The notes under the pieces are model-generated. The model was not told where the DNA came from. It did not search any database and saw only the letters and a program-made list of their open reading frames with translations. A DNA stretch of 64,000 bases, from positions 5,359,501 to 5,423,500 of the forward strand of contig NZ_CP109009.1 in the NCBI RefSeq assembly GCF_036226685.1. Reading direction: 5' to 3'. The number at the start of each line of letters is the position of its first letter. Position 1 is the stretch's first letter. The DNA comes from Streptomyces sp. NBC_00690 (lineage in GTDB: Bacteria > Actinomycetota > Actinomycetes > Streptomycetales > Streptomycetaceae). This document shows positions 1,636 through 55,500 of this stretch, piece by piece. The translations under genes were made by a program, and so were the position numbers.

Positions 1636-1657
1636 GACGACCGGGGCCGCCACCCCC
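1636..1657. repeat. attL core
   Basis: The 22 bases starting GACGACCGGGGCC are identical to 55479-55500. The flanking bases differ on both sides, so the identity is bounded. This is the left product of site-specific integration by the tyrosine recombinase at 54118-55392. Confidence 0.85.
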
Positions 1658-2819: not shown

Positions 2820-2858
2820 GCCCCTTCGCAGTGGTTGCAGCGTGGCCCGCTGGGACCG

Positions 2859-3977
2859 TCAGACCAGTGCCCAGACGTCCGCTCCCGCAGGGTCCTCGAA
2901 CCACAGCACGTGGGCATCTTCAGGTGTCACGGTCAGGCCGAACCGGTCCCATGTCGGCTGGCCGTGGTCGGTGAACCACCTCCACCAGCGTTCGACGGAT
3001 TCCCAGACGCCTTGCCCTCCGGCCTCCGACCACGTCGAGGGCTTCGCGCCGTCGTACGTCACCTCGGCCCAATTGTCACCGGGCAGGACTACCCGCCTCG
3101 TGGCGACGTCCCCTTCGTAGCCGTACTGAAGTTCCGCTCCGGGAAGATGGGCCGCCAAGAGGAACTGGAAGTGGTAGTTGTCGAACGCCGCGATCGGAAC
3201 GTTCGTCGTGCCACTGGCGTACGACGACTGCCCAGCGTTGGGGGCTGGGGGGCCGCCGCGAGAGCGGGCGGCCATGAATGAGCCGCCGTCCCCGTGGAAG
3301 CGTCCCTCCAGGCAGCCGTTCGGCTGGCGGTCCAGAACGACGAGTGTGTTGTTCAGTGGAGGGAAGAGGTTGGCGATCAGGCGCCCCCCGTCCCGGACCG
3401 CGTTCCGGAGCGAGCCGTTGATCCGGGGGAGCGCGCAGGACGCGATGACCCTGTCGAAGGTGCACCCCCACTCCTCCACCATCGCGTCCACGGTCCGGAG
3501 CTGCGGAGTGTGTCCGAGCCGCGAGAGCACCTCGGCGGCGGCGCTCGTCAGCGCGGGGTCGATGTCCGCCGACACGAGCTGCTGGGAGCCGGTGAGCCGG
3601 TGAGCGAGCAACGCGGTCTGATAGCCGGTTCCCGTTCCCAGGTCCAAGACATCGTCGGTGGTCCGGACATTCAGGAGTTCGAGCATCCTCACTACAAGGC
3701 TCGGAGTGGTGCTCGACGAAGTCGGTACTCCGCTGCCCGGCTCGCTGAACTGGGTGACCAGCGTGCGGGTTTTGTAGGCCGTCGTCAGCCACTCGTCACC
3801 ATCCGCCTCGGTGAGCTTCCGCCAGGTGGTGAGCGTGCCGGCATCGGGGAGGTAGTACGAGGGGACGAAGTAGTGCCGTGGGGTTTCCTCCACAGCCCGG
3901 CGCCAGTGGGCAGAGGAGAGATCGCCACTCGCCTCCAGGGAGTCGGCGAGCGCATTGGCGAGAGTTCGCCAGCTCAT
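2859..3977 (-). CDS. PIMT-like SAM methyltransferase of ATP-grasp peptide system
   Basis: A 372-residue protein of the protein L-isoaspartyl O-methyltransferase superfamily. The SAM-binding motif I is visible as VLDLGTGTGYQTALLA (about 110-125), followed by SADID (136-140). The segment before it (TPSLVVRMLELL) matches the PIMT helix. The C-terminal 170 residues go beyond a plain PIMT, as in the methyltransferases of ATP-grasp peptide maturation systems. In characterised graspetide pathways such enzymes methylate an Asp side chain, which then closes to aspartimide. The ATG at 3977 overlaps the ligase stop by four bases. Function is inferred from family and context. Confidence 0.88.
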   Translation of the reverse strand: MSWRTLANALADSLEASGDLSSAHWRRAVEETPRHYFVPSYYLPDAGTLTTWRKLTEADGDEWLTTAYKTRTLVTQFSEPGSGVPTSSSTTPSLVVRMLELLNVRTTDDVLDLGTGTGYQTALLAHRLTGSQQLVSADIDPALTSAAAEVLSRLGHTPQLRTVDAMVEEWGCTFDRVIASCALPRINGSLRNAVRDGGRLIANLFPPLNNTLVVLDRQPNGCLEGRFHGDGGSFMAARSRGGPPAPNAGQSSYASGTTNVPIAAFDNYHFQFLLAAHLPGAELQYGYEGDVATRRVVLPGDNWAEVTYDGAKPSTWSEAGGQGVWESVERWWRWFTDHGQPTWDRFGLTVTPEDAHVLWFEDPAGADVWALV

Positions 3978-4927
3978 GTCTTGCACCATTTCTCCAGTGT
4001 GTGTACGAACATGGAAGTGAGGGGCAGTTCGTTGTGTAGCCAGGCCCACTGGCCCGAGGCGTTCGCCTCCAGGAAGATCCAAGCCCGGTCCGGTCGAACG
4101 ATGAAGTCCAGTGACGCATAGGCGAGGCCCATCGCGTCCATGTACCGGCGGACGCCTTCCTGGACGGCGCACGGGGTTCTGATGGGGGTGTACTTCAGCG
4201 AGTCGTAATCCGCTCGCCAATCGTGCTCGGCGGCGGCGCTGTCGGTGTCGATCCGCACGCTGTGACATGCCCCGTCAATGACGACGGTGCGAACTTCGAA
4301 TTCCTTGGGGACCTGTTCCTGGAACAGGTGCGCGGTCAGGTGGATTCCCTTCAAGTCGCCCAAGTCGACGGCCCGGGTATACATCGTCTCCAATCCGGTC
4401 TGGTGAACAACTGTCGGCATTCCGAGCGGTTTGGTGATGACCGGGGCCCCGCCAAGCCCGGCCGCGAATGCCCGGACTTGGTCGGTTGAGTTGGTGATCA
4501 GGGTGCGTGGCACGGACAGCCCGGACGCGCGGGCCACCTTGAGCTGCCGGGGCTTGAACTCGGCGGCCGACGCTCTGGCCGGATGATTCATCCACCGGGC
4601 CTCCAGGCTTGTCAGCACTCCGCCCAGCCCGATCCGGGCAGCCCCTCGCGCCCAGTGGGCGTCCGAGGCTGACAACTCGGGGAACTCGAACAGGCGCGGC
4701 CGATTCCAGTACACCGCCCGCACCTCGGCCAGATCGACTCGGCGGTGGGGGTTGCTAAGGCGCCCCGACCATTCGCCGTCCGTGAACGAGGCGCTCAGCT
4801 CCAGTGCGTGCGGGAAGTCAGCCGTGTCCATCCGGAAAACCGGAACGTTGGCTGCGGACAGCCCCTCCGCGACGAGGTCGGTACCCGCCTCGAAGGGGCC
4901 GTCCACGATCAGGACTGTTGAGTTCAC
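3974..4927 (-). CDS. tgmB: ATP-grasp graspetide ligase
   Basis: A 317-residue ATP-grasp enzyme of the TgmB type. In this family it activates Asp/Glu side chains of a precursor peptide with ATP and joins them to Ser/Thr hydroxyls or Lys amines, making omega-ester or omega-amide rings. Visible features: N-terminal pre-ATP-grasp domain (VLIVDGPFEAGTD), VYWNRPRLFEFP, the ATP-binding strand PVITKPLG, the EQVPKEFEVRTVVIDG strand, and the metal/ATP site ASLDFI...FLEANASGQWAW near the C-terminus. GTG at 4927 overlaps the precursor stop (GTGA), so the two are probably translationally coupled. The symbol follows family usage. Confidence 0.9.
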   Translation of the reverse strand: MNSTVLIVDGPFEAGTDLVAEGLSAANVPVFRMDTADFPHALELSASFTDGEWSGRLSNPHRRVDLAEVRAVYWNRPRLFEFPELSASDAHWARGAARIGLGGVLTSLEARWMNHPARASAAEFKPRQLKVARASGLSVPRTLITNSTDQVRAFAAGLGGAPVITKPLGMPTVVHQTGLETMYTRAVDLGDLKGIHLTAHLFQEQVPKEFEVRTVVIDGACHSVRIDTDSAAAEHDWRADYDSLKYTPIRTPCAVQEGVRRYMDAMGLAYASLDFIVRPDRAWIFLEANASGQWAWLHNELPLTSMFVHTLEKWCKT

Positions 4928-5208
4928 TCGAAGCAGCCAGGGTCCGCGCCTTCGTCATGCGGCGGAGGGTTCTTGATGTCCCCGTCCGGGTTCGTCTTCT
5001 TGGAGGTCGCCATCGTGGTCAGCGGAGTGCCGTCCTGGTAGGCGGCCGTCTGCCGTACGGGATCGTATGCCGGCAGACCCAGGCTCGACGCCGACGCGGG
5101 GGAGGCTGCGGTGAAGCGTGCGCCACCCAGCGCGTACGGGCGCGCGCCCGTGGGGGCGGCATCCATGGGAAGTACGGTCTGAAGGGGTAACTGTGCGATG
5201 AGTTCCAC
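4924..5208 (-). CDS. tgmA: Graspetide (omega-ester peptide) precursor
   Basis: A 94-residue peptide; GTG 5208 sits nine bases after GGAAGGAA. The leader has the family signature: RPYALGGARF (23-32), YDPVRQ (48-53) and DGTPLTTM (59-66). The C-terminal core, from about residue 67, starts ATSKKTNPDGDIKNPPP and ends HDEGADPGCFE. It supplies Ser/Thr/Lys acceptors followed by several Asp/Glu donors. The Asp75-Gly76 pair is the most reactive context for aspartimide formation and the likely methyltransferase target. Ring pattern cannot be read from sequence. It is the first gene of a three-gene overlapping operon. Confidence 0.85.
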   Translation of the reverse strand: MELIAQLPLQTVLPMDAAPTGARPYALGGARFTAASPASASSLGLPAYDPVRQTAAYQDGTPLTTMATSKKTNPDGDIKNPPPHDEGADPGCFE

Positions 5209-5261
5209 GAAGTTGTCTTCCTTCCATCCATTCTCGACTCGGCCCACGGTGGGCCGGGCGG

Positions 5262-5603
5262 TCAATACGCCGTCATGTCCAGTGAGGCGTAGCTGTGGGT
5301 GCACAAGCCGGGGTGGCTGGCGAACAGGACGCAGTCGTCGGGCTGCCCGTCGACCCAGATGCGTGAGCCGCAGTCCGGCCGGGCGCGCAACATGGTCCTG
5401 GTGGACGTGTCGGTCCACTCCGCCCAGACGGCGGCGGCGTGCATGAGGGGTACGACGAAGCCGCGGTGCGGGCCGTCGTGCTCCTCCAGTTCGCAGAGCG
5501 CGGCTGTGGTGATGTCGCCGTGCTCCGTATTGCTGAAGACCGGAAAGAGCTTCCGCGCGCACTCGATCTGAGCCGGTGAGAGCTTCCGGAGCGCGCCGCA
5601 CAT
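5262..5603 (-). CDS. Small protein of unknown function upstream of graspetide operon
   Basis: A 113-residue protein if ATG 5603 is used (MCGALRKLSPAQIECARKL); the frame is open to 5756, but that extension is arginine-rich and less likely. Five cysteines and several histidines and tryptophans (EEHDGPHRGFVVPLMHA, WAEWTD) suggest a compact, possibly metal-binding fold. I do not recognise the family. It is co-directional with the precursor and 53 bases upstream of its start, so it may share the transcript and assist peptide maturation or export. Confidence 0.6.
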   Translation of the reverse strand: MCGALRKLSPAQIECARKLFPVFSNTEHGDITTAALCELEEHDGPHRGFVVPLMHAAAVWAEWTDTSTRTMLRARPDCGSRIWVDGQPDDCVLFASHPGLCTHSYASLDMTAY

Positions 5604-7143: not shown

Positions 7144-7201
7144 GGTCTCTCCCGTTTTGCGAGTACAGCATTGGGCGCGGCTCCAGGGACGACGATGCTG
7201 A

Positions 7202-7747
7202 TCACGGACTGCTCCCCGGGTCGACTGCTCTAGGGCCCTCCCACCCCTCCTGCTTCATGAGGGTCAAGAGATCGCGGGCCGTCTTCGCCGCTTCGCGCAC
7301 CTCCGCGCTGTTGCGACCCCCCTCCCGGCCCGCGACGCCCCGGGCCCGGTCGACCATGGCCCGCACGACCACCCGGCCGAAGTCCAGAACTGCATCGGCC
7401 TCTTCGACCAGCGCTCCCAGGTATCCCCGGAGTGTGACCACCGCAGCGTCGAGGTCGCCCTCCTTCACCTCGTCGAGGTGGCTGCTCAACAGGTACTCGA
7501 CGCTTTCCTCGATCGCGACGACGGTCACACGGACCGGTGTCCTACCGGCTGTCAGGTCTCGCCGCATCGCTTCCAGGAACGTGCGTAACATCCCTGTTTC
7601 CGCAGCGACCCCGGGAGCTACCGCGAAGCCCGGCTCGGGGAGTCGGTGCGTCCAGCCTTCGCCTGTCGGCCGCTGCTCCAACGGAGGGGCGATTCCGCGG
7701 CGGGCGGGCTGGCCGATCAGGAAGAACCGTTGGCCTTGTTGCCCCAT
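7202..7747 (-). CDS. DUF6415-like helical protein
   Basis: A 181-residue protein (MGQQGQRFFLIGQPARR). The C-terminal 120 residues are helical, with VTLRGYLGALVEEADAVL and AKTARDLLTLMKQEG. This resembles small regulator-adjacent Streptomyces proteins of the DUF6415 type; the match is from memory of the pattern, so tentative. The start ATG shares a base with the ATPase stop (TGATG), indicating translational coupling to that anti-sigma-like protein. Confidence 0.6.
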   Translation of the reverse strand: MGQQGQRFFLIGQPARRGIAPPLEQRPTGEGWTHRLPEPGFAVAPGVAAETGMLRTFLEAMRRDLTAGRTPVRVTVVAIEESVEYLLSSHLDEVKEGDLDAAVVTLRGYLGALVEEADAVLDFGRVVVRAMVDRARGVAGREGGRNSAEVREAAKTARDLLTLMKQEGWEGPRAVDPGSSP

Positions 7748-8172
7748 CAGCCCTCCGCCTCCGGGACGCACAGCTCAGCCCACACCGTCTTGCTCTGGGG
7801 GTGTAGTTCGTATCCCCAGCGGGCGCAGAGGGCGTCGACGAGGTGGAGGCCCCGTCCGCCCAACGAGCTGTCGTCAGCGGCACGGCGGGCGGGAAGAACA
7901 TCGAGCGCAGAGTCCTCGGCGCTGATGCGGACCCCACCCTCTTGCAGCTCCACGGAGAACCGGAACGTCTGGCATTTCGTGTGAACGACGGCGTTCGTAG
8001 CCAGCTCAGAGGCGATCTGCGCCGCGTCGCTGCACAGATCCTGTATGCCCCACATCTCCAGGGCGGTGGCAACGAGGCGTCGTGCAGTGGAAGCGGCCTC
8101 GGGGCTGCACGCCACGACTTGCCTGTAGCTGGGCTCTCCTATGGCGGTTTTGCGGATCGCCGTCGTACTCAC
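7747..8172 (-). CDS. Anti-sigma-like histidine-kinase-type ATPase
   Basis: A 141-residue HATPase_c_2 protein of the RsbW/SpoIIAB type. Visible boxes: the N-box region ASELATNAVVHT (the Asn that binds Mg-ATP), and the G1/G2-like part DDSSLGGRGLHLVDALCARWGYE. Proteins of this kind in Streptomyces pair with XRE-DUF5753/DUF397 loci and are thought to bind sigma or anti-anti-sigma factors. GTG 8172 follows GGAGG with four-base spacing; ATG 8190 is the alternative start. It is divergent from the XRE gene, sharing a 217-bp promoter region. Confidence 0.8.
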   Translation of the reverse strand: MSTTAIRKTAIGEPSYRQVVACSPEAASTARRLVATALEMWGIQDLCSDAAQIASELATNAVVHTKCQTFRFSVELQEGGVRISAEDSALDVLPARRAADDSSLGGRGLHLVDALCARWGYELHPQSKTVWAELCVPEAEG

Positions 8173-8282
8173 GGGGCCTCCGAAGGTCATGCCGAAGCCC
8201 TGGGGGCAGGGCAGGCGGGACCGGCGACAACTGCCCTGCGGCTCAGGGACGTTGTCTCGACTTGGGCAACGATGCTCTATTA

Positions 8283-8321
8283 GAAACGTTGCGCGCAACC
8301 CCCCAGTATTCGAAACGTTGC
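8283..8321. promoter_or_regulatory. Candidate operator: two GAAACGTTGC direct repeats
   Basis: Exact copies of GAAACGTTGC occur at 8283-8292 and 8312-8321. A related GCAACG half-site in opposite sense lies near 8266, and the first copy runs into the palindrome GTTGCGCGCAAC. They sit in the divergent promoter region between the ATPase and the XRE regulator. Binding by that regulator is an inference. Confidence 0.5.
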
Positions 8322-8389
8322 TCAAAGCGAAGACCTGACGTGGGGCAGGGTCGGGCGTGGCGGTACGCTGCCTCGCGAGGAGGTGCGCC

Positions 8390-9259
8390 ATGCCCGAAGC
8401 GAGACCGAACGTCCACCGCAGGAGGCTCGGCTCGGCCCTGCGGTCTCTACGCCGCGCCGCCGGGCTTTCGATGGAAGAAGCCGCAGATCGTCTGGCACTC
8501 TCGGGCAAACCCACTCTCAGCAAGATCGAGAATGGCAAGCAGAGGGTTCAGGGGCTCGCCCTGACCGCGTTCCTTGAGGTCTACGGGGTGCGGGAGGAAG
8601 CGACCCGGCAGGCGATCAAGGCCATGGCCACTCTCGCGGCCAGCGGTCGGCGCACGAGCCTGCTCGACGAGTACCGCGAAGCCGTCGTGACCGAAGGGTT
8701 TGAGGAGTATCTGCACCTGGAGGAGCTGGCTTGTGCGACCGAGGGCTACCTCACGGTTGTCCCTGGCCTGCTCCAGACCGAGGACTACGCGCTCTCGATC
8801 GTGGAACGGAGTCAGGTGTGGCCTTCGCGGCGCGAGGTGGCCCGCTTCGTCGAGCTGAGGATGGCGCGCCAGGCCGCGCTTACTCGCGAGACGCCGCTCA
8901 CCTTCGCCTGCATTCTGGATGAAGCCGCCCTTCGGAGGGTCGTCGGAGGACGGGCAGTCATGAAAGCCCAACTCGAACGACTCCTCGAAGTGACCGAACA
9001 GCGCAACAATGTGGATGTGCGCGTCCTGCCGTTCGATGTTGGCGCCCACGCCAGTTCGGACGGCCCATTCCAGCTTCTACACTTCTCTGCGGGACCACCG
9101 GTCGTCGTGATCGAAGGCAAGACGAGATCGGTCTACCTGGAGGAGGCGGGAGACGTGGACCGGTATCGGTCTGCCCTCGACTCTCTGACTGAACAGACGC
9201 TCCCTGCGGACCAGACCCGTCGCTTCATCAGCGACTTGATCAAGGATTGCTACTCATGA
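8390..9259 (+). CDS. XRE-family regulator with DUF5753 domain
   Basis: A 289-residue protein. The N-terminal helix-turn-helix is at residues 12-65 (LRRAAGLSMEEAADRL...TLSKIENGKQRV). A DUF5753 effector domain follows from about 95 to 275, seen in GYLTVVPGLLQTEDYAL, VELRMARQAAL, DEAALRRVVGG and the C-terminal AGPPVVVIE. ATG 8390 is behind GGAGG. It overlaps the DUF397 gene by ATGA. In Streptomyces these pairs control development or antibiotic genes and have been compared with toxin-antitoxin systems. Finding one on a prophage next to a RiPP cassette suggests it controls cargo rather than phage immunity. Confidence 0.88.
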   Translation: MPEARPNVHRRRLGSALRSLRRAAGLSMEEAADRLALSGKPTLSKIENGKQRVQGLALTAFLEVYGVREEATRQAIKAMATLAASGRRTSLLDEYREAVVTEGFEEYLHLEELACATEGYLTVVPGLLQTEDYALSIVERSQVWPSRREVARFVELRMARQAALTRETPLTFACILDEAALRRVVGGRAVMKAQLERLLEVTEQRNNVDVRVLPFDVGAHASSDGPFQLLHFSAGPPVVVIEGKTRSVYLEEAGDVDRYRSALDSLTEQTLPADQTRRFISDLIKDCYS

Positions 9260-9477
9260 AAAAGCAGGTTGACCTGACCTCTGCCGACTGGGCCAAGAGT
9301 GAACTGAGCAACGGCGGCAACAATTGCCTGGAAGTCGCCTTCGTCGATGGCGTTGTGGCGCTGCGTGACTCCAAGGACGTCGGGGACCCCGATGCAAAGG
9401 TCCTGATCGTGTCCATGGAGGACTACCGGCTCTTTACGACGAGTGTGCGGGCGGGGCAGGCGACCCTTCTTCCCTGA
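9256..9477 (+). CDS. DUF397 protein
   Basis: A 73-residue DUF397 protein with the family pattern: AdWaKSELSNGGNNCLEVAF near the N-terminus, VALRDSKD in the middle and an acidic/hydrophobic end. The ATG lies in the stop of the XRE-DUF5753 gene. DUF397 partners are usually small modulators of the adjacent regulator. Family function is only partly known. Confidence 0.88.
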   Translation: MKKQVDLTSADWAKSELSNGGNNCLEVAFVDGVVALRDSKDVGDPDAKVLIVSMEDYRLFTTSVRAGQATLLP

Positions 9478-9500
9478 CCGCGCTACTGGAACTGCGCAAG

Positions 9501-9599
9501 CGCCCACTTTCCGTAGGAGAGTGGGCGTCGCCGGTTGGCGTCTTAGTGCCTACCGCCGACGACTCGCCCGATGGTCCGCGGGGCGCCGTCGACGGTAGG
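9501..9599. terminator. Two hairpins between accessory zone and phage early operon
   Basis: CGCCCACT pairs with AGTGGGCG (about 9503-9528), just after the DUF397 stop. A second inverted repeat pairs CCTACCGCCGACG with CGTCGACGGTAGG (9549-9599, one mismatch) around a long loop. They stand between the converging DUF397 and early operons and probably end both. Neither has a clean T-run. Confidence 0.5.
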
Positions 9600-24757: not shown

Positions 24758-25602
24758 TAGATGACCACCCACTTCCGGGGACGCCAGGAGACGACGATCC
24801 GCGAGGCGGCCGTCGTGTTCAGCAGAGCGACAGAGGCTGTCGAAGTCCCCGGTGGGACCGACCAGAACCGGGGGGCGGTGGCGAGGTAGCGGTAGACGTT
24901 GGCGCCGGAGCCGTCACGGACGATGCCCGCGCCCATGTCGACGGTGATGCTCCCGGTCGACGTGATCGCCCCGGTGTAGTGGAGGGCCTGGCCGTCCGGC
25001 CCGATGGCCTTGAAGTTGTCGCCCGGCCCGTACACCTGGAACACGGGGTAGGCGGCCACGTCACCATCGTTGGTGAGCTGTACGTCGCCGATCGCCTGCG
25101 AGGCGGCGAGCGGCATGGCAGCGAGCGCGGAAAGGAACGGGGCGGCGGTGGCGCCGCCGATGGTGACCGTCTGCCCGGCCTCCGCCAGGAAGTACGGGCT
25201 GGGGGCGCGGAGCGTGATGACGGTCTGGGTGTCCCGCTGCCCGGCGCCCGGGTCGATCGCTCCTCCACCGGTCCATCGCACGGGGGTGCTCCAGCGGGTG
25301 CCGGTGCTGTCGGTCACCGTGAGGGTGCACTCGTCGGCCAGGACGCGCACCAGCCGGGTCACCAGCTCGGAGAGGTGCGCCCGGTCGCGGCCGACGATGT
25401 CGAGGGGGATATCGATGTCCCGGGGCAGAACCCTGCGGCCCCGGTAAGACGCGCCGTCCCCGGCGCCTTCGAGCCACTGCGCGGAGAGCTGGGGCAGACC
25501 CATGCCGGTGATCCCGGCAAGGGCCTGATAGCCCACTCCGCCCGCCTCCCCCTCGGACAGGTCCAGCGAATCCGAGGGGGAGTTGAGTGAGAGCGTTACC
25601 AA
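24757..25602 (-). CDS. Distal tail (Dit-like) protein
   Basis: A 281-residue protein from TTG 25602, overlapping the tape-measure stop. A phage tail-component pattern is visible (DIDIPLDIVGRDRAHLSELVTRLVRVL and VVSWRPRKWVVI at the end). It forms the ring joining tail tube and tip. Position directly after the tape measure is standard. Confidence 0.85.
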   Translation of the reverse strand: MVTLSLNSPSDSLDLSEGEAGGVGYQALAGITGMGLPQLSAQWLEGAGDGASYRGRRVLPRDIDIPLDIVGRDRAHLSELVTRLVRVLADECTLTVTDSTGTRWSTPVRWTGGGAIDPGAGQRDTQTVITLRAPSPYFLAEAGQTVTIGGATAAPFLSALAAMPLAASQAIGDVQLTNDGDVAAYPVFQVYGPGDNFKAIGPDGQALHYTGAITSTGSITVDMGAGIVRDGSGANVYRYLATAPRFWSVPPGTSTASVALLNTTAASRIVVSWRPRKWVVI

Positions 25603-28600
25603 CCGACCATCCTTGCCCGCGAGGCAGCCGCGAACAGCTCCTCCTCGGACGAGAGAGAGGAACTGGCGTTGCCCGCGTAGTAGTTGAGTACCTTCGACAC
25701 CGGGGCCTGCTGGCCGCCGGGGCGGGCCAGACCGGTGGACACGGCCGCTGTGATCTCGCCGGACGCGCCGGTCGCGGCGCCGTGGGCCAGTGCCCGGCCG
25801 GCACGCTCGATGCGCTGCGTCTCGTCCTCGACACCGAGGCCGAACCCGCGCCCCGCGAAGGAGCCGATCCGGCGCAGCAGCCGGGATGGGCTGCGGATGT
25901 CGAGGGCCTTCTTGATCGCTGCGACCATGCTCGTGGCGATCTTGAGCATGGTCTTCTCGATGACGGCCTGCTTGGCTTCGAGGCCCTTCACCAGGCCCTC
26001 GGCGGCTGCGAGGCCCGCTTCGTACATGTGCTTCGAGGCGGTCGCCCCGGCAGCGTTGGCGTGCTTCTCCAACTCCTTCTGGAGCTGGTTGATCTCGTTC
26101 ACGCCGCTGTGGCCCGCGTTGGCGATGGCGTCGGCTGCGGCGAGACCCGCCTCCGGCCCGGCCATGGCGATCTGGCCGAAGGTGGCCTGGTTGAGGCCGA
26201 GCTTCTTGAGCTTCGCCAGGACGGCCGCGAACTTCTTCGCCTGCTCGACCGCGTTCTTGAGCGAGTCGGTGATCGAGGAGAAGGAAGCGTCCTTGACCTT
26301 GGTCACGTCCCCGGTGGCTAGGACCCGGTCGGCGACCTGGGCCGCGTAGCCCCGGGCTTCCTCGCGCAGCCGGTCAAGCTGGTCGCGGGCGGCCTCCAGC
26401 CGCTTCGCTCCGGCCTCCCACTGGGCGGCCAGCTTGAGCAGCTCGGTGCGGTCCCGGTTCACCCGGTCCTTGAGCCCCTTGGACGCGTCCTTCGGGATCT
26501 TCGCCGTCAGCTCGGCGAGGGACTGCTTCACCTTGTCGTACTGCGACTCCAGACCCTTGACGAGGCCGGAGATGATGAGCCGTCCCGCGTCGTAGAGGAG
26601 TCGGGCGTCCTTTTTCGGAGGGCCCTTCCAGTCGGTCAGCTTGTCGGTGAGTTCGCCGAGCTTGCCCTTGACGGCCCCGAACATCGACTTGATGCCGTCG
26701 ATGAGTCCCTGGATGAGCTTCTTGCCCGCGTCGATGAGAGTTGAGCCGAGACTTCCGAGGGCCGACTTCGCCTTGCCCGGCAGCTCCTTGAGGACTGTGA
26801 GCACGCGGCCGATGCCGTCCGAGACTGCTGTCCGCAGAGAGGTCATCGCGGTTCCGGCGACGGACTTGATCGAGTCCCAGGTGCTGGAGAAGAAGCTCTT
26901 GATCGAGTTCCAGATCGAGGACCAGATGCCCTTGATCGCATTCAGCCCGTCGTCGATGTAGCCACGGACGCCCGTCATGAAGACGCCCGCCGCACCCCTG
27001 ATGCTGTTCCACAGGCCGATCGCGAAGGATTTGATTCCGTTCCAGATGTCGTCCCACAGGGACTTCACTCCGGAGAGGATCTTCTTCCCGACGCCGAGGA
27101 TTCCGACGCTCAGGAAGACCATGAACAAACCCTTGATGGTGTCCCACAGGCCGGAGAGGAATCCCTTGATTCCGTTCCAGATTTGCTTCAGGCCGTCGGA
27201 GAACATCGACCAGTCGCCGGTCAGGGTTCCCTTGAAGAATCCGACGACCACCTTGAAGTAGCCGACGATGTAGTCCCAGACGCCGACGAAAATCTTCTGC
27301 AATCCCTCAAGGACATTGGCTACGCCGTTGATGGCGGTCACCAGCACGTCCAGAAAGAGCCCGGCTATGAATTCGATCGCCGGAGCCAGGATCGGCATCA
27401 GGAAATCGACTATCGCCTCCAGCGCCTCAAGGAAGGGCTGGAGCGCTTCCATGACGGCCGAGAAAGCGGCCGAAATCTGAGGCAGATATTCGGCGGCGAG
27501 CGATTGGACGACCGGGATCAGCGGCAGAATCGCAGCCGTCAAAATCCGCATCAGGATTTCGACGACGGGCTGAAGCGCCTCCGACATCACCGCGAAGGCG
27601 GCAGTGATCAGCGGGATGATCGGGGCCAGCCCGGCGACGAGGGCCTCGACGAGCGGGACGACGGCCGCGACCACCGTCATGAAAAGCGGGGTCAGCGCCG
27701 CGACGATCCCCATCAGCCCGTCACCGAGCAGCCCGATCAGCGGAAGAACCGCAGCTCCGAGCAGAGTGAACGTTTCTGCAAGGGGGGTTAGAACGGCGGC
27801 TGCGAGGGGGCCGAGGATGGCCGCGAGGGCGCCCGCGATCTCCAGCAGGGTGCCGAGGGCGGCTCCGGCCGGCATCATCGCGGGGGCGAGCGCCTCGACG
27901 GCGGACTGAATCCCGTCGAACAGGGACTTGACCCCGTCGACCACCGCGGGCTGGGACAGCGCCGAGGCGATGGCGCCGAGCGCGGTTCCGATGATCGCAC
28001 CGACCTGCGGGAGGATGTCCCGCAGCAGACGGCCGAACGTCTTGAGGAACTCTTCGACCGCTGGGCCGGAAACGGTGGCGATTTCCCGCATCGCCTCATG
28101 GGCGGCGTAAAAGAGCTGCGTCAGTCCGGACTGGAACGACGGGCTGTCCACAGTCCTGTGGACACGCTCCAGCCCGCTCGCCATGGAGTCGAGCGTGGAA
28201 CCCCCGGCCGCAGTCGCGGCCCGGGAGAACCCGGCGAGGATTCCGCCCGTGTGGAAAAGGACCGAGCCGAGATCCTTGAGGGCGTTAATTCCCTCGTCGA
28301 TCTCCTTCTTGAGCCCGATCTCACCCTTGCGCTTCAGGAAGGCGTCGAACTTCTCCGAAATGGTGACGAACCACTGCGCCAGCTCGGGAAGATAGGAAGT
28401 GCCGACCTTCCCCAGAATGGCGATGACCGACGCGAAAGTATCCGTCCCGGCCGTCGCAATTCCGATGGACTCGGAAAGGTCCGAGAACATCTGGCCGAGC
28501 GCGGGAACGAGTGCGCCTTCGAGGCCGGTGGCGAGGCCGCCGAAAAAGCCGCCGAGCTGAGTCGCGGTCTGCTCGACCCCGTCCCGGAACTTCGGGAGCA

Positions 28601-29870
28601 GCTCCTCGACGAGGGAGCGGATCGGCTCCCGCGCCTTCTCCCAGAAGTTGCCCGAGATCGCGTCCTGGAGACCGGCGAGCGCCTGCTTCGCCTCCGGGAT
28701 CTCCTTGTTGAAGTCCTTGAGGGCGGCGACCGTGACACCCAGGCCGACCGCGATACCGCCGAGGAGACCGGGGAGAAGGAGGGCGGTGTAGCCGATCTGC
28801 GCCAGCGACGCGGAGAGGGCGGCCAGGTTGGACGCGGCGGCGATGCCCCACCCGGCGAGGCCCGCGATGGCGGTCGCCATCGTCCCGATGACCGGCACAC
28901 TCTTGTCGAGGTTGCTGATCGTCCGGCCGAGACGCTCGAACATGCTGTTGATGACCCGAGCGCCGGAGAGGGCCTGGAGCATGGAGGACGCGGTAGCCGC
29001 AGCCGACAGCCGCACCCGGGGGACCAGATGAACGATCCGGTCCCGGGCGAGCGCGGCAATGTGGGCGAAGGCCGCCATCATCCCGGTGCGGGACACCTCG
29101 GGCTCGATCTCGGCCCGCAGCCCGTCGATCCGCTCCTGGAGGTCTTCCATGTCCCGCTCGACGGCGCGGACCGCGAGCGCGTCCAGCTCGGGCGTGATCT
29201 TGGCGCGCAGCTCCCGCATCCGGGCGAACGCCGCCTCCAGCTCGCGCTTGGTCTTGGCGACGTGCGCGTGGTCCAGCTCGGGGCGGATGTCGATGCCGTC
29301 CAGCTCGGCCTGGATCTCGTCGGCGGCCTGCTGTGCGGCGGCCCGCGAAGCGGCCAGCAGATCCCGCCTGGCCTCCTCCAGCGAATCCCGGTCGAGCCGT
29401 ACGGTCAGCTCGGTCTCGGCGATCCGCTCCAGCTCGCGGTCGAGACGGGCGACCGCGCTGCGGACGGACGACTCGGAGGCGCGGTCGACCTGGACGGAGA
29501 CCGTCCCGATGTCGTCGAGCTGCTCCTCGAACATGTCGACGGCTGCCTGCAACGAGGCTTCGTTCAGGTCGACCTCGATGGTCGTCTCGCGCAGGGTGTC
29601 GAGCGCCCGGCGTGTGCGGGCGATGGCAGCCCGGACGGAGTCCTGGTTGTCGAGGTTGACCCGCAGTCGGAGATCCTTCATCTCCCGCTGGGCGTCGCGC
29701 CGGGCGGAGCGGGCCTGCCGGCCGAGTTCCTCGCCGTCGAGGCGGGCGTCCACCGTGACATCAAGGTCCCGCTCGATCCTCTTGAGTTTGTCCTTGAGGT
29801 CGTCCTTGAACCCGGCGGTGTCCGGCATGACCTTGACCGCGACCCGGCCGACTATGTTCGCGTCCGACAA
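25596..29870 (-). CDS. Tape measure protein
   Basis: A 1424-residue protein, the longest in the phage. It has an N-terminal helical charged region with heptad-like repeats, a hydrophobic stretch with many Gly/Ala/Ile segments (about 330-860), Trp-rich repeats such as SLWDTIKGLFMVF and SIWNSIKSFFSSTWDSIK, and a coiled-coil C-terminus. It sets tail length and reaches into the cell membrane at infection. TTG 29870 follows GGAGG. Confidence 0.95.
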   Translation of the reverse strand: MSDANIVGRVAVKVMPDTAGFKDDLKDKLKRIERDLDVTVDARLDGEELGRQARSARRDAQREMKDLRLRVNLDNQDSVRAAIARTRRALDTLRETTIEVDLNEASLQAAVDMFEEQLDDIGTVSVQVDRASESSVRSAVARLDRELERIAETELTVRLDRDSLEEARRDLLAASRAAAQQAADEIQAELDGIDIRPELDHAHVAKTKRELEAAFARMRELRAKITPELDALAVRAVERDMEDLQERIDGLRAEIEPEVSRTGMMAAFAHIAALARDRIVHLVPRVRLSAAATASSMLQALSGARVINSMFERLGRTISNLDKSVPVIGTMATAIAGLAGWGIAAASNLAALSASLAQIGYTALLLPGLLGGIAVGLGVTVAALKDFNKEIPEAKQALAGLQDAISGNFWEKAREPIRSLVEELLPKFRDGVEQTATQLGGFFGGLATGLEGALVPALGQMFSDLSESIGIATAGTDTFASVIAILGKVGTSYLPELAQWFVTISEKFDAFLKRKGEIGLKKEIDEGINALKDLGSVLFHTGGILAGFSRAATAAGGSTLDSMASGLERVHRTVDSPSFQSGLTQLFYAAHEAMREIATVSGPAVEEFLKTFGRLLRDILPQVGAIIGTALGAIASALSQPAVVDGVKSLFDGIQSAVEALAPAMMPAGAALGTLLEIAGALAAILGPLAAAVLTPLAETFTLLGAAVLPLIGLLGDGLMGIVAALTPLFMTVVAAVVPLVEALVAGLAPIIPLITAAFAVMSEALQPVVEILMRILTAAILPLIPVVQSLAAEYLPQISAAFSAVMEALQPFLEALEAIVDFLMPILAPAIEFIAGLFLDVLVTAINGVANVLEGLQKIFVGVWDYIVGYFKVVVGFFKGTLTGDWSMFSDGLKQIWNGIKGFLSGLWDTIKGLFMVFLSVGILGVGKKILSGVKSLWDDIWNGIKSFAIGLWNSIRGAAGVFMTGVRGYIDDGLNAIKGIWSSIWNSIKSFFSSTWDSIKSVAGTAMTSLRTAVSDGIGRVLTVLKELPGKAKSALGSLGSTLIDAGKKLIQGLIDGIKSMFGAVKGKLGELTDKLTDWKGPPKKDARLLYDAGRLIISGLVKGLESQYDKVKQSLAELTAKIPKDASKGLKDRVNRDRTELLKLAAQWEAGAKRLEAARDQLDRLREEARGYAAQVADRVLATGDVTKVKDASFSSITDSLKNAVEQAKKFAAVLAKLKKLGLNQATFGQIAMAGPEAGLAAADAIANAGHSGVNEINQLQKELEKHANAAGATASKHMYEAGLAAAEGLVKGLEAKQAVIEKTMLKIATSMVAAIKKALDIRSPSRLLRRIGSFAGRGFGLGVEDETQRIERAGRALAHGAATGASGEITAAVSTGLARPGGQQAPVSKVLNYYAGNASSSLSSEEELFAAASRARMVGW

Positions 29871-34898: not shown

Positions 34899-35951
34899 TC
34901 ACGCCTCCTGGGCTGTGATCGTGGACTGCCGCTCGGCCTCCTGGGCTTCTGCGGCTCTGTGCTTCTGGCGGATGAACCGGCGCCACGCCGAGACGGCGGC
35001 CTTGCCGGACAGACCCTTGGTGACCTTGGGCCACAGGGCCCCGTACTCGCGGGACAGGGCCATCAGCTCGGAGCCCTGGAACTGCTGCCGGTTGAAGACC
35101 GGGGCGGCGTAGCAGACGCAGTTGTCGTGGTAGCGGTCACCGTCGGCGAAGGTCGCGGACTCGCGGGACTTGTAGACGGCGCCCCGGCTGATCAACATCG
35201 CGCACCAGCCGCACGGCGTGCCCGACTTGGAAAGCCGGACGTAGCCGAGGGCCCGCCCATCCCGCCGCATGTGGTTCCACGTCGCTGACCGGGCACCGTT
35301 CATCGCGACCCGGGACGCGGCGGCGGCCTGCTGCGCACCGGCCTGCCGATGGGCCTCGGCCCGCTCGCGGTCGGCGACCCGGGCGGGCTGCCCGTCGTCT
35401 ACCTCGGCCACCTTGCGATGCAGGTTCAGAATGCCGAGCGCTTCGAGGACCGTGGCGAGTTCCTCCTCGGCCTGGCGCTCGATCGCCTCCTCGGCCTCCC
35501 GGAGACCAGGCAGCTCTTCGACAAGAACCCGCTCGTCCTCGACGGCCGGACGCGGGGCTTCCCCGGACTCGCCGGTCGCGGCCCCACCCCCGGCCGGAGC
35601 CATGGGACGAGCGGCCCCCGCCAGCGCCGCGAACTCCCGGCGCAGATCGGCCAGGGTGACGTGCGTCGGTTCGGGGTGGTAGGGATCGGCCACCGTACGG
35701 CCGGTCTGGAGAGCACGGGCGAGACGGTAGAACGCCCTGGCGAGATCCCTCGACCGCCGCCGCTGACCCATGACGAGCGTGATCGCCCGCCGCAGCCAGC
35801 CCCCGGCCGTCGCCGCACGCAGATCGGTCGGCACATCCGCCCACAGGGCCATCGCCCCGACGGCCGTCTCCGCGCCGATCTGCGCCAGCGCCACATGGAA
35901 AGCCGCGGTGGCCTCGTCCGTCTCGGTGGACCGGGCGGCGGACACCGTCAC
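34899..35951 (-). CDS. MuF-like / VG15-type minor head protein
   Basis: A 350-residue protein. The C-terminal domain has GTPCGWCAMLISRGAVYKS and DRYHDNCVCYAAPVF, the Cys/His pattern of MuF-type minor capsid proteins. The N-terminal half is helical with an Ala/Glu-rich middle (VLVEELPGLREAEEAIERQAEEELATVLEAL). It is ejected with or bound to DNA at the portal vertex. It overlaps the portal stop by four bases. Confidence 0.8.
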   Translation of the reverse strand: MTVSAARSTETDEATAAFHVALAQIGAETAVGAMALWADVPTDLRAATAGGWLRRAITLVMGQRRRSRDLARAFYRLARALQTGRTVADPYHPEPTHVTLADLRREFAALAGAARPMAPAGGGAATGESGEAPRPAVEDERVLVEELPGLREAEEAIERQAEEELATVLEALGILNLHRKVAEVDDGQPARVADRERAEAHRQAGAQQAAAASRVAMNGARSATWNHMRRDGRALGYVRLSKSGTPCGWCAMLISRGAVYKSRESATFADGDRYHDNCVCYAAPVFNRQQFQGSELMALSREYGALWPKVTKGLSGKAAVSAWRRFIRQKHRAAEAQEAERQSTITAQEA

Positions 35952-37369
35952 GCCGCCACCGCTTCAACCGGGCGGGACTCGGGGGTCGCGCGGGTGATCG
36001 CGCCCGCGAGCTGCCCCACCGAGTCGTCGTCCTCCCGCATCTCCTCCCAGTCCTCAAGTTCGGTCTGGGTCACACCCGGCACGCGGCGCCACAGGCCCCG
36101 CTCAGGGATGCCGAGCTGTTCGCGCAACTTGCCGAGGGCGTCGGCGGCCTGGGCGAGCGACCGGGACTCCATGTCCCGCCACACGACCTCGCCCCGGTGG
36201 TCCTCGGCCGACGCCGTGTTGCCGGACAGCTCGCCCGCGAGCCTGAAAACTCTTTCCCACGACTCGCCGAAGCCCGTCCGGAACTCCGCGATCATCCGGG
36301 ACAGCGAAGTCTCGGCCGCTTGGAGCGCCTCGGCGCTCAAGTTGGCGATCTGCCCCAGCATCGCGTGGGGAGGCACCTGCGCGAGCGCGCTGAGATGCCG
36401 GATGCTCATCTCCAGGGACTCAACGAAACCAGCGAGTGGCGTCTCGTCGAGGCTCCCGAATCTTGTGTCGGGATCTTCGGCGAACAAGAATCGGCGGGCG
36501 TTGTGGTTGATCGACAGGGGTATGGGGTTGCCGGATTCGTCGAGGACCGGCTCACCAGTCTCGGGGTCCCGCCGGACTGGCGGCGCCATGCCCGTAACGG
36601 TCCTGACCTTGGTGGAGCCGTAACTCTGCGCCAGGAGCAAGTCGAACGACGTTTGATTGATTCGATCTTGAGTGGCGATCATCGGCTCGATCACGCCGAC
36701 AGTCCGACCCTCCAGATCCACGGAGGCCGCGAACCGGGTCACCGGACACTCGCTCGCCCCGTGGACGAGCCCACCGTCGACCCGCACCGAGTCCTCGTCA
36801 GCCGCAGACCGGAAGACCACCTCGTACACCCGGCGGGCGTCCCACAGCCGGGCCCGGCCCAGCGACTCACCCACCGGCCAGGCGGTCACCGTCAGTGCGG
36901 CGGCCGGCACGTCATCGTTCGCCGGGTCCTCATACAGCGCGCTCGTCCGCAACGCGGACAGACCCCGTGTACGCACCTGGCCGTCCCGGGACCGCTCGGT
37001 CACGGTGAAGCTGTGCCCGTACGCGAGCGCACCCCTATATACAGCGGCCTGCCGAGCATCCAGCCGGGACCGCTGCCAGTGCTCCCACTCCGGCGTCGCC
37101 GAATCCGGCTGCACCGCAGACTCTCCGCTCCGACCCGGCCGGTGCCCATCCACGTAGAGGGCCTGCGCCGGGGTCGAGACGAGCAGGGGCATCCAATTTG
37201 ACACCGACCTGCGAGCCAGCAGCCGATACTCGTCGTCCGCCTGGGGCGGCATGTACGGATCGCCATGTCGACCGTGCAGATAGTCGTCGATCCGGCGCAG
37301 CCGGTCACCGTCACGATGAAGGACGCCGAGAAGCTGTCGAGCGAGCGACATGGGGGAAGAAGCGGCCAC
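35948..37369 (-). CDS. Portal protein (SPP1 gp6-like)
   Basis: A 473-residue protein: N-terminal wing (IDDYLHGRHGDPYMPPQADDEYRLLARRSVSNWMPLLVSTPAQALYVDG), core MIATQDRINQTSFDLLLAQSYGS and the stem/clip region near LSALAQVPPHAMLGQIANLSAEALQAAETSL. It forms the dodecameric DNA gate. GTG 37369 follows GAGGTGG. Confidence 0.9.
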   Translation of the reverse strand: MAASSPMSLARQLLGVLHRDGDRLRRIDDYLHGRHGDPYMPPQADDEYRLLARRSVSNWMPLLVSTPAQALYVDGHRPGRSGESAVQPDSATPEWEHWQRSRLDARQAAVYRGALAYGHSFTVTERSRDGQVRTRGLSALRTSALYEDPANDDVPAAALTVTAWPVGESLGRARLWDARRVYEVVFRSAADEDSVRVDGGLVHGASECPVTRFAASVDLEGRTVGVIEPMIATQDRINQTSFDLLLAQSYGSTKVRTVTGMAPPVRRDPETGEPVLDESGNPIPLSINHNARRFLFAEDPDTRFGSLDETPLAGFVESLEMSIRHLSALAQVPPHAMLGQIANLSAEALQAAETSLSRMIAEFRTGFGESWERVFRLAGELSGNTASAEDHRGEVVWRDMESRSLAQAADALGKLREQLGIPERGLWRRVPGVTQTELEDWEEMREDDDSVGQLAGAITRATPESRPVEAVAA

Positions 37370-37404: not shown

Positions 37405-39054
37405 TCAAATGAAGAAGCCCCGGCCGGTCCGCTTGCGGACGCGCTTGCCGCGGGCACGGAGATCGGTGAGAGCCTCGTGCGCCAACATGAGCGCCGCGTA
37501 CGCGTCGACCTTCTTCGGGCTCTCCCGGCTTTCCTTGCCGAACGAGACGCCGTAGTTGTTCACCCGGCGCCGCGCATTGAGCGCGTGCCGACGCAGCTTC
37601 AGGTCGCCGTCGTGGCGGAGCTTCCTGTCGAAGATGGAGCGCATGAGCCGTTCGTGCGCGAGGGTCGAGGACTTGAGGCTCGACCGCATGTCCCAGCCGA
37701 TCGCGTCCTTGCCGGGCGCCTTCACGGCCAGGCCCTCGCCGTACGCCTCCGACCACTCGGAGATGTACGACTCCCAGAGGGCAACGTCGGCATACATGCC
37801 CTGCACCGAGAAGACACGGAAGGTGTCGTGCACGGCCGAGTCAACCTCGGCCTTCGGAACCTCCCAGTTCGCCCCGGCCGGGCCGTCTGGCTTCTCCCAC
37901 AGGCCGATCAGGAAGGCGGCCATGTCGGAGACGCGAACGGCAACCAAGGCGGTCGCGTCGTCCCGGAGGCCGCCGTCGAAGCCGACTGTGATCTCGTCGC
38001 CGGGCTTCAGCGAAAGCGAGGTGTCCCGTAGGACATCCCACTCGGCCGGACCGTGCACCGCGTCCTCTTCGGCGACGATCTGATTCAAGTACATGCGCCG
38101 CGAACGCGCGGCGGAGATCGTCAGGTTGAGGACAGACTTGATGATCGTTTCGACTTTGAGCCACACCGCGTCACCCCTGATTTTCGGGATGACGATGCGC
38201 AGGGCCTCGGCCGTCAGGGGCGTCGCAGGGTGAGCCTCGATCGAGTCGTACAGCGCGCCGACATCGGCCGCCAAGCCCTCCCGGACCTTCTCGTACGCCT
38301 CGCGCATCCGCTCGGCGACGCTGTCCTCGCCCGGCATGAAGGCGTTGGTGATGCTGAGATAGCGGGAGTCCATTTTTGTGGCGTTGCCGTCGATGGTCTC
38401 GTACATCTTGACGCCGCCGTTGCCCAAGACCCAGTGATGAGTTTCATTGAGCAAGGTGAAAGTTGTTCTCTTGCCCTCGATCGCGCGATACGAGCTGGTC
38501 ACGGCCTGGAGGCGCTTGCGCCCCCGGTCCGCCCGGATCAGCTCGGCGCCAAGCTTGATGCCGTACGTCGAGATCAGCTTCTCGGACATCAGGACCGGCA
38601 GGTAGCCCATGGTGTTCACCGTCTGCTCTTGGCTGACGGCCGTCACCTGCACCCACGCCTGTGGGTGTGGCTTGGCTACCGGCTCGCCGTTCTCGTCCCA
38701 GTGGGAGAAGCGCGACGGCCCGACGAACTCCACGAGCGAGATCACCGCGAGAAGCGGGTCCTTGCCCCAGCCCTTGAGTCTCTGCAAGACGCCGGTTCTG
38801 TAGACGAACTCGCCGTCCTCGCCGATGGCGTACCACCACAGGAGGAAGCGGAGCTGCTCGCGGGTGAAGCGCCAGGGGACACGCTTCTCGTCGGTCGAGC
38901 CCTCGCCGTCGAGGTACTCCGCGCACCAGCCGGCGACCTGCCAGCCGAGAGTGCGCGCCGGCAACTTCCACTGTCCGAAGGCATCCTTCCGCCAGGTCGG
39001 CCCGTGGAACTCGGGCTCCAGGGCCTCGATCTCTTCGTCGGTGAGGGTAGGGAT
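37405..39054 (-). CDS. Terminase large subunit
   Basis: ATPase and nuclease of DNA packaging. ATPase part: VLQRLKGWGKDPLLAVISLVEF (Walker A variant with Lys), then KRTTFTLLNETHHW. Nuclease part: EITVGFDGGLRDDATALVAVRV and the C-terminal KKVDAYAALMLAHEAL. The first ordinary start is TTG 38964 with a weak ribosome site. The frame extends to 39069 and codes PTLTDEEIEALEPEFHGPTW, typical for the family N-terminus. A strong GGGAGGAG is six bases before ATC 39054, so I place the start there with caution. Confidence 0.85.
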   Translation of the reverse strand: MPTLTDEEIEALEPEFHGPTWRKDAFGQWKLPARTLGWQVAGWCAEYLDGEGSTDEKRVPWRFTREQLRFLLWWYAIGEDGEFVYRTGVLQRLKGWGKDPLLAVISLVEFVGPSRFSHWDENGEPVAKPHPQAWVQVTAVSQEQTVNTMGYLPVLMSEKLISTYGIKLGAELIRADRGRKRLQAVTSSYRAIEGKRTTFTLLNETHHWVLGNGGVKMYETIDGNATKMDSRYLSITNAFMPGEDSVAERMREAYEKVREGLAADVGALYDSIEAHPATPLTAEALRIVIPKIRGDAVWLKVETIIKSVLNLTISAARSRRMYLNQIVAEEDAVHGPAEWDVLRDTSLSLKPGDEITVGFDGGLRDDATALVAVRVSDMAAFLIGLWEKPDGPAGANWEVPKAEVDSAVHDTFRVFSVQGMYADVALWESYISEWSEAYGEGLAVKAPGKDAIGWDMRSSLKSSTLAHERLMRSIFDRKLRHDGDLKLRRHALNARRRVNNYGVSFGKESRESPKKVDAYAALMLAHEALTDLRARGKRVRKRTGRGFFI

Positions 39055-54117: not shown

Positions 54118-55392
54118 GTGGCGAGAAAGGGTAACGGCCTGGGAGGCTCCCCGGTCGAGATCATAAGGAGCGGCCGGCCGAACACCTGGGGGGTGAGGAC
54201 GCCCCTCCACTACGATCCGGTGCAGGGGAAGAAGATTCGTTTCTGGATCGGCCGCGACTACTCGACGAAGACCGAGGCGAGCCGAGCCCTCAACAAGTGG
54301 ATGGCAGAACACGACAGCGGAGCTGTCGTACCTCGCTCCGACATGAAGTTGGGCGACTGGCTGGACAAGTGGTTCGCCGGACATCGAGTTGAGGACACCA
54401 CTCGCTCCGGTTACGAGCCGAAGATCAGGCTCCACATCAAGCCGCACATCGGGTCCAAGAAGCTCAGGGACATTACCGATGACGATCTGGATGCCCTTTA
54501 TCGAATGCTCGAAACTGCGCCCTGCTCGTCGAACGGGGGAAAGCCCCTGGGGGCAAAGTCGGTTCGCCACATTCACAACATCCTTTCGGGTGCCTTCGAC
54601 GCCGCAGTCCAAAAGAAGTTGATCCCGGCGAACCCGGCGGCCACGGCCAACCCGCCCACGCTTCGGCAGATCAAGTCGCAGGGACGCAAATTCCAGACGC
54701 TCGACGATGCGGACACCTCCCGCTTCCTCACCGACATCTGGGCACCCTGCGGAAGGCGGGGGTGCGGCCCCCTGCACGGCTGCACGCGCGACGCGCCGCT
54801 GTGGACCGTCTACACCGCGACCGGCGTCCGGCGTAGCGAGGCTCTGGGGATGATGTGGGACCTCGTCCATTGGGACGAGTGCGCGATAGAGCTGGAGTGG
54901 GTCGTCGTCGAAGTCGGCAACCAGAGCGTCTTGCGCCGCCTGACCAAGGATGGCGACGACAACGCGATCATCTACGTTGATCAAGCCCTGATGAGTGTGC
55001 TGAAGGTTCAGCGCGAGCGTCAGGAGATGTGGAAGGAGAAGGTTGGCCCGCTCTGGACCGACCACGGCCTTGTCTTCGCCCGCGACGGGTACATGCCCCG
55101 CAAGGGCGGCCTGAGACCCGGCGATCCGCAGGACGCCGGCCAGGTGAGCGCCCGGTGGCGGACGGTTCGGAAGAGGCTGGGCCTGCCGGAGCGGTTCCGT
55201 GTTCACGACTGGAGACACAGCAAGGTGACCAACGACCTGGACGCCGGGGAGAACCCGGTGGAAGTATCGGCAAATGTGAGGCACCACTCACCCGGATACA
55301 CGATGGCCCAGTATGGCAAGCCCCGCGTCGCAGGTGCCCGAAAACTGGCGTCAGGAACGGCCCGGCGCATCGGCCTGGGGGAGGTCACGTGA
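54118..55392 (+). CDS. int: Tyrosine site-specific integrase
   Basis: A 424-residue protein: an N-terminal arm-binding part, a core-binding SAM-like domain (KLGDWLDKWFAGHRVEDTTRSGYEPKIRLHIKPHIG, about 77-112), then the catalytic domain. Active-site residues: Arg238 (TATGVRRSEAL), Lys277, His363 and Arg366 (HDWRHS), His390 and the nucleophile Tyr399 (MAQYGK). A Cys-rich insert (CGRRGCGPLHGC) is notable. It inserts the phage at the 22-bp core. GTG 54118 follows AAGGAGG. Confidence 0.93.
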   Translation: MARKGNGLGGSPVEIIRSGRPNTWGVRTPLHYDPVQGKKIRFWIGRDYSTKTEASRALNKWMAEHDSGAVVPRSDMKLGDWLDKWFAGHRVEDTTRSGYEPKIRLHIKPHIGSKKLRDITDDDLDALYRMLETAPCSSNGGKPLGAKSVRHIHNILSGAFDAAVQKKLIPANPAATANPPTLRQIKSQGRKFQTLDDADTSRFLTDIWAPCGRRGCGPLHGCTRDAPLWTVYTATGVRRSEALGMMWDLVHWDECAIELEWVVVEVGNQSVLRRLTKDGDDNAIIYVDQALMSVLKVQRERQEMWKEKVGPLWTDHGLVFARDGYMPRKGGLRPGDPQDAGQVSARWRTVRKRLGLPERFRVHDWRHSKVTNDLDAGENPVEVSANVRHHSPGYTMAQYGKPRVAGARKLASGTARRIGLGEVT

Positions 55393-55478: not shown

Positions 55479-55500
55479 GACGACCGGGGCCGCCACCCCC
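55479..55500. repeat. attR core
   Basis: Identical to attL (1636-1657). The identity is ended by different bases at both sides. Lies 87 bases after the integrase stop. Confidence 0.85.

Follow-up and report, generated by a model that had tools for sequence, protein, structure and literature searches.

A graspimiditide-type biosynthesis cassette very probably carried as cargo by a temperate phage of Streptomyces

What is a cassette for making a modified peptide doing inside a prophage, and does it belong to the phage at all? The question is raised by three genes on the minus strand (2859 to 5208) of a 64,000-nucleotide stretch of the chromosome of Streptomyces sp. NBC_00690 (contig NZ_CP109009.1; this whole stretch is called the window, and positions are counted from its first letter unless another record is named). 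An earlier note had read the three genes as a precursor, an ATP-grasp peptide ligase, and a methyltransferase resembling protein isoaspartyl methyltransferases (PIMTs), all coupled by four-base overlaps. Family models agree with this at these positions (Table 1), and the ligase indeed overlaps the stop codon of the precursor by GTGA and the methyltransferase that of the ligase by ATGA. The start codon of the precursor is GTG, and GGAAGGAAG lies upstream of it. We consider it very probable that the cassette directs the biosynthesis of a group 13 graspetide (graspimiditide) and that a temperate phage carries it as cargo for lysogenic conversion.

The assignment of the enzymes is carried by profile comparisons. 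The top-scoring NCBIfam model is the expected one for both the ligase (TIGR04187) and the methyltransferase (TIGR04188), and the precursor lies above the naming cut-off of its own model (TIGR04186). The solved ligases nearest by profile include AMdnB (E 4.6e-43) and CdnC (E 9.6e-40), and the ligase does not pass the microviridin-type equivalog models MvdC and MvdD (166.8 versus 425 bits and 156.2 versus 475 bits, respectively). The methyltransferase matches solved PIMTs by profile; Pfam PCMT spans its residues 58 to 224 of 372, and about 148 further residues lie C-terminal to this domain, an extension well over 100 residues. The same set of precursor, one ATP-grasp ligase, and one C-terminally extended PIMT homologue characterizes group 13, i.e., fuscimiditide, amycolimiditide, albusimiditide, and SsfA(BM) (PMC13001092 and PMC10787088; PMC numbers here and below stand for the portions of these articles that were available). 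The cassette also resembles the imiditides (type I pamtides), in which a PIMT homologue acts on an Asp of a small precursor, but these have no ATP-grasp ligase and the PIMT homologue is their sole maturation enzyme. Thus, the earlier label "graspetide/imiditide" stands in its first half only, since in current nomenclature an ATP-grasp ligase makes the product a graspimiditide and a PIMT homologue alone makes it an imiditide (PMC13001092). No transporter or protease gene was recognized in the cassette. The host chromosome encodes three further ATP-grasp ligases of the same family at 2.86, 4.56, and 0.63 Mb (L002, L003, and L004), which are 40, 34, and 32% identical, respectively.

The predicted core of the precursor, TTMATSKKTNPDGDIKNPPPHDEGADPGCFE, has the group 13 pattern of Thr/Ser donors, a loop Asp before Gly, and acidic acceptors, comparable to the Thr donors, DG loop, and acidic acceptors of the known members (PMC13001092, PMC10787088). 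Asp75-Gly76, which had been proposed as the likeliest aspartimide site, lies at the position given and is invariant in six distinct precursors of the ligase clade described below; by the DG rule (PMC13001092), it would be the predicted site on sequence grounds. The last 36 residues of these six precursors, from DGTPL onward, are 78 to 94% identical, and the ratio of nonsynonymous to synonymous differences (pN/pS) in the core is 0.10 to 0.38 over their 15 pairs (uncorrected counts); these comparisons indicate purifying selection on the core. Fuscimiditide and amycolimiditide are the models for nested esters plus a loop aspartimide (PMC13001092, PMC12291112), and by analogy, Thr and Ser ahead of the DG loop and Asp and Glu behind it would make nested esters, with the loop Asp becoming the aspartimide. 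The ligase would bind the leader of the precursor (RPYALxGARF ... YDPxxQTA ... DGTPL), phosphorylate carboxylates of the core, and close nested side-chain esters, with Thr64, Thr65, Thr68, Ser69, and Thr72, all before the Asp75-Gly76 loop, as donors and Asp77, Asp85, Glu86, Asp89, and Glu94, all after it, as acceptors. The PIMT-like enzyme would then methylate Asp75 in the folded stem-loop, leading to ring closure to the aspartimide. We infer these cross-links and their pairing, the aspartimide, expression of the cassette in the lysogen, and its benefit; the sequence data themselves show the genes with their operon and families, the prophage with its attachment sites, and the recurrence in further phage contigs. 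A neighboring set of cassettes, chromosomal wherever the surroundings were read, has THTPT.PDG...NPPPLDEGPKD-like cores, one of them with PGG in place of PDG. Unlike the known group 13 systems, the window cassette combines a ligase of a distinct clade, a core block of NPP(P) plus DEGxDPG, and carriage by a prophage; the available text on those systems does not mention phage.

That the cassette belongs to the prophage follows from its boundaries. A 53.9-kb element is bounded by an exact 22-nt repeat, the cassette starts 1,202 nt inward of the left copy (attL), as the 1.2 kb of the earlier note had it, and the core of the attachment (att) site is one half of a 45-nt hairpin-forming site ahead of a gene for an extracytoplasmic function (ECF)-type sigma factor. 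The whole hairpin site is undisrupted in relatives without the element. When 61 genomes were searched with each chromosomal flank, the flanks matched at most about 1.5 kb apart in six (G004, G013, G015, G025, G028, and G029), which leaves no space for the element; the left-flank match is weak (64 to 79% identity, in 41 of the 61 genomes), so that the other genomes are uninformative or have other sequence at the site. Besides the integrase, terminase, portal, and tape measure proteins, the element encodes a major head protein, an exonuclease, and a primase, and the cassette is thus enclosed by attL and attR in an element that has both an integrase and structural genes. In the circular phage form, its 3' end would be 1.3 kb from that of the integrase gene. 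The alternative of a chromosomal island beside a misplaced attL could appeal to the tgmB homologues that are common in Streptomyces chromosomes, but the att core, the intact empty sites, and the closely spaced flanks in six relatives make it very improbable, and it is already disfavored. The occurrence that had been named as telling against phage carriage, this cassette at this site in a chromosome lacking the prophage, was looked for and not found: the six relatives have no room for it, and in an even sample of 392 genomes of the genus, close precursor matches outside the cassette's own genome are confined to G380, G395, and G169, all with other flanks.

Flanks 5 to 23 kb apart were seen in G005, G006, G019, G030, and G034 (loci L011, L026, L027, L028, L030, and L032), and the hairpin site before the sigma factor gene (55479 to 55523) may be an integration hot spot. 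Within the prophage, promoter-like stretches resembling TAGTTACATGTTgACA recur before phage genes at 15391, 15553, and 37383, and a 44-nt repeat with internal symmetry has three copies (43389 to 43432, 45433 to 45476, and 48097 to 48140) that are 75 to 98% identical to the reference copy.

Table 1. Positions of the cassette, its predicted core, and other features of the element in the window
Feature	Position	Strand	Basis or remark
Precursor peptide (tgmA type), 94 aa	4924..5208	-	TIGR04186 26.2 bits, cut-off 25; clade alignment
Predicted core, residues 64-94	4927..5019	-	Conserved TxMATSxKTNxDGDxxNPPxxDEGxDPGxxE-like block in clade; leader end inferred
Asp75-Gly76, predicted aspartimide site	4981..4986	-	Invariant in 6 distinct clade precursors; DG rule from PMC13001092
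ATP-grasp peptide ligase (tgmB type), 317 aa	3974..4927	-	TIGR04187 E 3.4e-103; profile matches to solved AMdnB, CdnC
PIMT-like O-methyltransferase (tgmC type), 372 aa	2859..3977	-	TIGR04188 E 9.6e-77; Pfam PCMT
attL core, 22 nt	1636..1657		Exact copy of 55479-55500; left half of hairpin site intact in empty relatives
attR core, 22 nt	55479..55500		Exact repeat; hairpin site continues to about 55523
Tyrosine integrase	54118..55392	+	phrog_1 E 4.7e-42
Terminase large subunit	37405..38964	-	phrog_9
Portal protein	35948..37369	-	phrog_104
Tail tape measure protein	25596..29870	-	phrog_305
HATPase_c_2 protein, possible regulator of cargo zone; start tentative	7747..8538	-	Pfam PF13581
XRE-type regulator with DUF5753; 8357 probably upstream of its real start	8357..9259	+	Pfam PF19054, PF13560; phrog_9908
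DUF397 protein	9247..9477	+	Pfam PF04149

The relatives of the ligase bear on whether this carriage is a single accident. In a tree of 65 ligases, that of the window and five others form a distinct clade with 100/100 support, and no ligase outside it, among those compared, exceeds 46.5% identity to the window ligase (left out of the tree were L156, whose ligase equals that of L155, the fragment L068, and L183 to L187, L189 to L198, and L200 to L202, which are wider fetches of loci already included, second copies, or a fragment). The clade members occur in two prophages, one prophage-like element, a relaxase-bearing element found in two genomes, and two chromosomes. The second prophage, in G169, is different from that of the window and has the cassette near its end; matches at the level of PHROGs include terminase, endolysin, major tail protein, ribonucleotide reductase, ThyX, DNA polymerase, and helicase, and IMG/VR independently lists this DNA as a 52,635-base provirus contig that ends within the ligase gene. 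A 19-nt repeat at 129756 and 182886 is a candidate att pair and no more, and no integrase gene was recognized in the element on reading its open frames, no systematic search having been made. The host gene at the right end of this prophage has a partial copy of its 3' part, 70% identical, about 59 kb leftward (G169:C1:123662-123880), perhaps a trace of integration. The member in G616 is on a contig, beginning at the cassette, that encodes an integrase, an antirepressor, a RecE-like exonuclease, and a replication initiator and in which no structural genes were seen. The search proposed in the earlier note for the same leader beside other phage genes was thus positive in G169 and G616. The relaxase-bearing stretch, with an identical clade ligase in G525 and G463, also encodes a resolvase and a ParA-like protein.

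A wider recurrence was found in the phage contigs of IMG/VR. Single-sequence scans with the window ligase and the window integrase and a scan with the precursor alignment (A2) recovered no relative there; a four-row ligase alignment recovered one contig, the G169 prophage itself, and the methyltransferase alignment that contig alone. A wide ligase alignment (A4) recovered 32 contigs with such ligases, and since only this wider alignment did so, what such scans can detect is set by the pattern used and the count is a lower bound. Comparison with PHROGs covered 26 of these loci, leaving out L233, L240 (a duplicate of L239, 99.98% identical over 10.9 kb), L250, L251, L253, and L254. A gene of phage type (structural, lysis, integration, or phage DNA metabolism) lies within 6 kb of the match in 24 of the 26, made up of 21 loci of the actinobacterial kind and three distant ones (L252, L255, and L256), with L247 counted through its identical copy in G169; of the remaining two, L243 matched only an "other" family and L245 nothing. 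An integrase lies at most 2 kb from the cassette end in eight of the 24 (L225, L226, L227, L230, L237, L239, L241, and L256, in the last of which no PIMT was seen), much as in the circular form of the window phage. The cassettes of L225 to L228 and L231 share 86 to 91% DNA identity over 2.4 to 3.0 kb in mostly unlike flanks, which points to exchange of the module between phages. A tblastn search with the proteins of the window and G169 prophages against 22 neighborhood loci found nothing, which shows only that these have no close kinship to the two phages. The precursors that precede the distant ligases of L251, L252, L253, L255, L211, and L212 (IMG/VR or phage records) have repeated TKT...E(S/T)DDE-like cores. 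The gene after the ligase appears to specify a membrane-bound protein in L211 and L212 and one with a similar N terminus in L255.

Among isolated phages, the R4-like ones (R4, Urza, Endor1, and Alsaber) share the terminase and head module of the window prophage: its terminase and that of Streptomyces phage Urza have 84.8% identity over residues 1 to 487, the value for R4 being 79.3%, and DNA matches to a 24-kb query from the structural region occur in 165 Streptomyces phage records, the best coverage among the matches listed being 15 to 18% at about 72% identity. The integrase is about 25 to 27% identical to phage integrases among the matches listed. A PIMT homologue, 28 to 30% identical, occurs in eight phage records representing five named phages, all on Streptomyces venezuelae ATCC 10712; about 2.5 kb separates the PapayaSalad copy from a serine integrase. 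In the four Austintatiousvirus phages examined, this homologue follows, after 8 nt, an open reading frame whose product has about 48 residues, many of them Gly and Ser, and contains an invariant SSDGSG (L129:3816-5155 in PapayaSalad and the corresponding position in L258, L259, and L260). This resembles the type I pamtide layout of about 45 Gly-rich residues with a conserved Asp (PMC10787088), and by sequence, the pair is a candidate imiditide (type I pamtide) precursor with its PIMT in isolated phages.

Several observations weigh against phage carriage or against the class assignment. The ligase scores just under its naming cut-off (345.1 versus 350 bits) and the methyltransferase well under its own (258.8 versus 380 bits), the cut-off being a naming threshold and not a defining trait of group 13 graspetides. 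Two clade members, in the putative Streptomyces antioxidans G380 and the putative Streptomyces iranensis G395, have chromosomal surroundings, so the graspetide module needs no phage. No TgmB of the window's kind was found in a phage collection of 50,697 records, two of which (a Leptospira phage and an unverified fecal scaffold) have a distant relative of the ligase, and the cargo zone (1658 to 9600) has no DNA match in that collection, the R4-like records included. As for IMG/VR, the ends of its proviruses can include host DNA, several of the cassettes sit at contig ends, the proteins compared with PHROGs had been selected by eye for their likely phage origin, and the resulting counts cover graspetide-ligase contigs alone, with no matched control gene. 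Firm phage genes stand on both sides of the cassette in just four contigs: endolysin and integrase in L227 and L237, terminase and portal plus major head protein in L229, and replication protein and integrase in L256. In L226 and L230, an integrase on one side is paired with a collagen-like tail fiber match on the other; such matches, which may be compositional, are the left-hand evidence for these two and all of the evidence for L231 and L238. For the left-hand proteins of L225 and L241, all matches are to PHROGs without an assigned function, and an additional L241 protein and one L242 protein have no PHROGs match. Finally, PADLOC recognized no defense gene in nine of ten other prophage proteins, the tenth being a DNA methyltransferase alone (48096 to 49409; matching type II methyltransferase models).

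Related cassettes in other phages suggest that such peptides serve phages inside their hosts, and the earlier description of a modified peptide as unusual phage cargo holds insofar as it is rare; it is nonetheless recurrent and not a one-off. The enzymes and the product class are already known, and so are clusters for ribosomally synthesized and posttranslationally modified peptides (RiPPs) in prophages, which are rare. Dragos and coworkers are said to have described phage-borne bacteriocin clusters in 2021. In a survey of 2,112 actinobacterial prophages, 13 had antiSMASH clusters, among which class I lanthipeptides and type III polyketide synthases (T3PKS) are named and graspetides are not, as far as the available text goes (PMC10023795); the class I lanthipeptide clusters of Streptomyces prophages are likewise RiPP genes as prophage cargo but with another class of enzyme. 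In the part of the literature on graspetides with prophage or bacteriophage that was available, which did not extend to the primary graspetide-mining papers, we found no report of a phage-borne graspetide, and the word "phage" is absent from the text of PMC8939145.

The alternative that the cassette is a passenger, moved by phages and plasmids without serving them, draws on the commonness of chromosomal copies (ligase matches in 37 of the 61 relatives) and on the close clade members on chromosomes and on the relaxase-bearing element. We regard it as unlikely, the conserved core and the recurrent place beside an integrase pointing instead to selection. The earlier note had put forward superinfection exclusion, host fitness, and competition between lysogens as possible roles. 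Since no transporter or protease gene was recognized in the cassette, action inside the lysogen is favored. The leading guess, still a doubtful one, is an anti-phage peptide kept in the cell as a defense against superinfection. It fits the lack of a recognized exporter or protease gene in the cassette and the carriage by prophages, and its weight comes from the nearest functional precedent, the intracellular anti-phage lanthipeptides of Streptomyces and other Actinomycetota (PMC12360287), likewise RiPPs kept in the cell. However, the precedent belongs to another RiPP class with other chemistry and to chromosomal defense islands, and the PADLOC scan of ten prophage proteins found no such island around the window cassette.

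Secretion of the peptide to act on competitors of the lysogen is a less probable course. Phage-borne bacteriocins exist, e.g., sublancin in SPbeta. Moreover, peptidase and transporter genes are frequent in graspetide clusters (PMC8939145), but no transporter, peptidase, or immunity gene was recognized in the cargo zone, three of whose proteins have no family match. For the genes at 1944 to 2819, 5262 to 5756, 5972 to 6613, 6274 to 7143, and 7202 to 7771, the other loci fetched contain no homologue.

The adjoining XRE, DUF397, and HATPase proteins, which we take to resemble WhiJ-type regulators, allow for another role, in which the peptide would act on the regulation or development of the host. 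Three elements, namely the window prophage, that of G169, and the relaxase-bearing one, have an XRE protein with DUF5753 and a DUF397 protein near the cassette, and XRE homologues occur in 29 fetched loci. Regulators of this type are very common in Streptomyces, however, and as the loci compared all bear graspetide genes, the linkage may be due to chance; we give this role little credence.

On a broader scale, it is possible, though we put it forward only tentatively, that phages encode aspartimide-type RiPPs as a recurrent class of effectors, in which temperate phages of Streptomyces and its kin would repeatedly capture graspimiditide cassettes, and Austintatiousvirus apparently an imiditide-like pair, beside attP or the integrase, the intracellular peptide then controlling the lysogen by shutting out rival phages or steering the host. 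The biological role of aspartimide-bearing RiPPs has been posed as an open problem (PMC13001092), and their carriage by phages narrows it: being carried repeatedly next to integrases, such a RiPP probably acts in the lysogen, and the plaque-forming phages of S. venezuelae ATCC 10712 with the two-gene version allow a clean test, as it can be removed for comparison.

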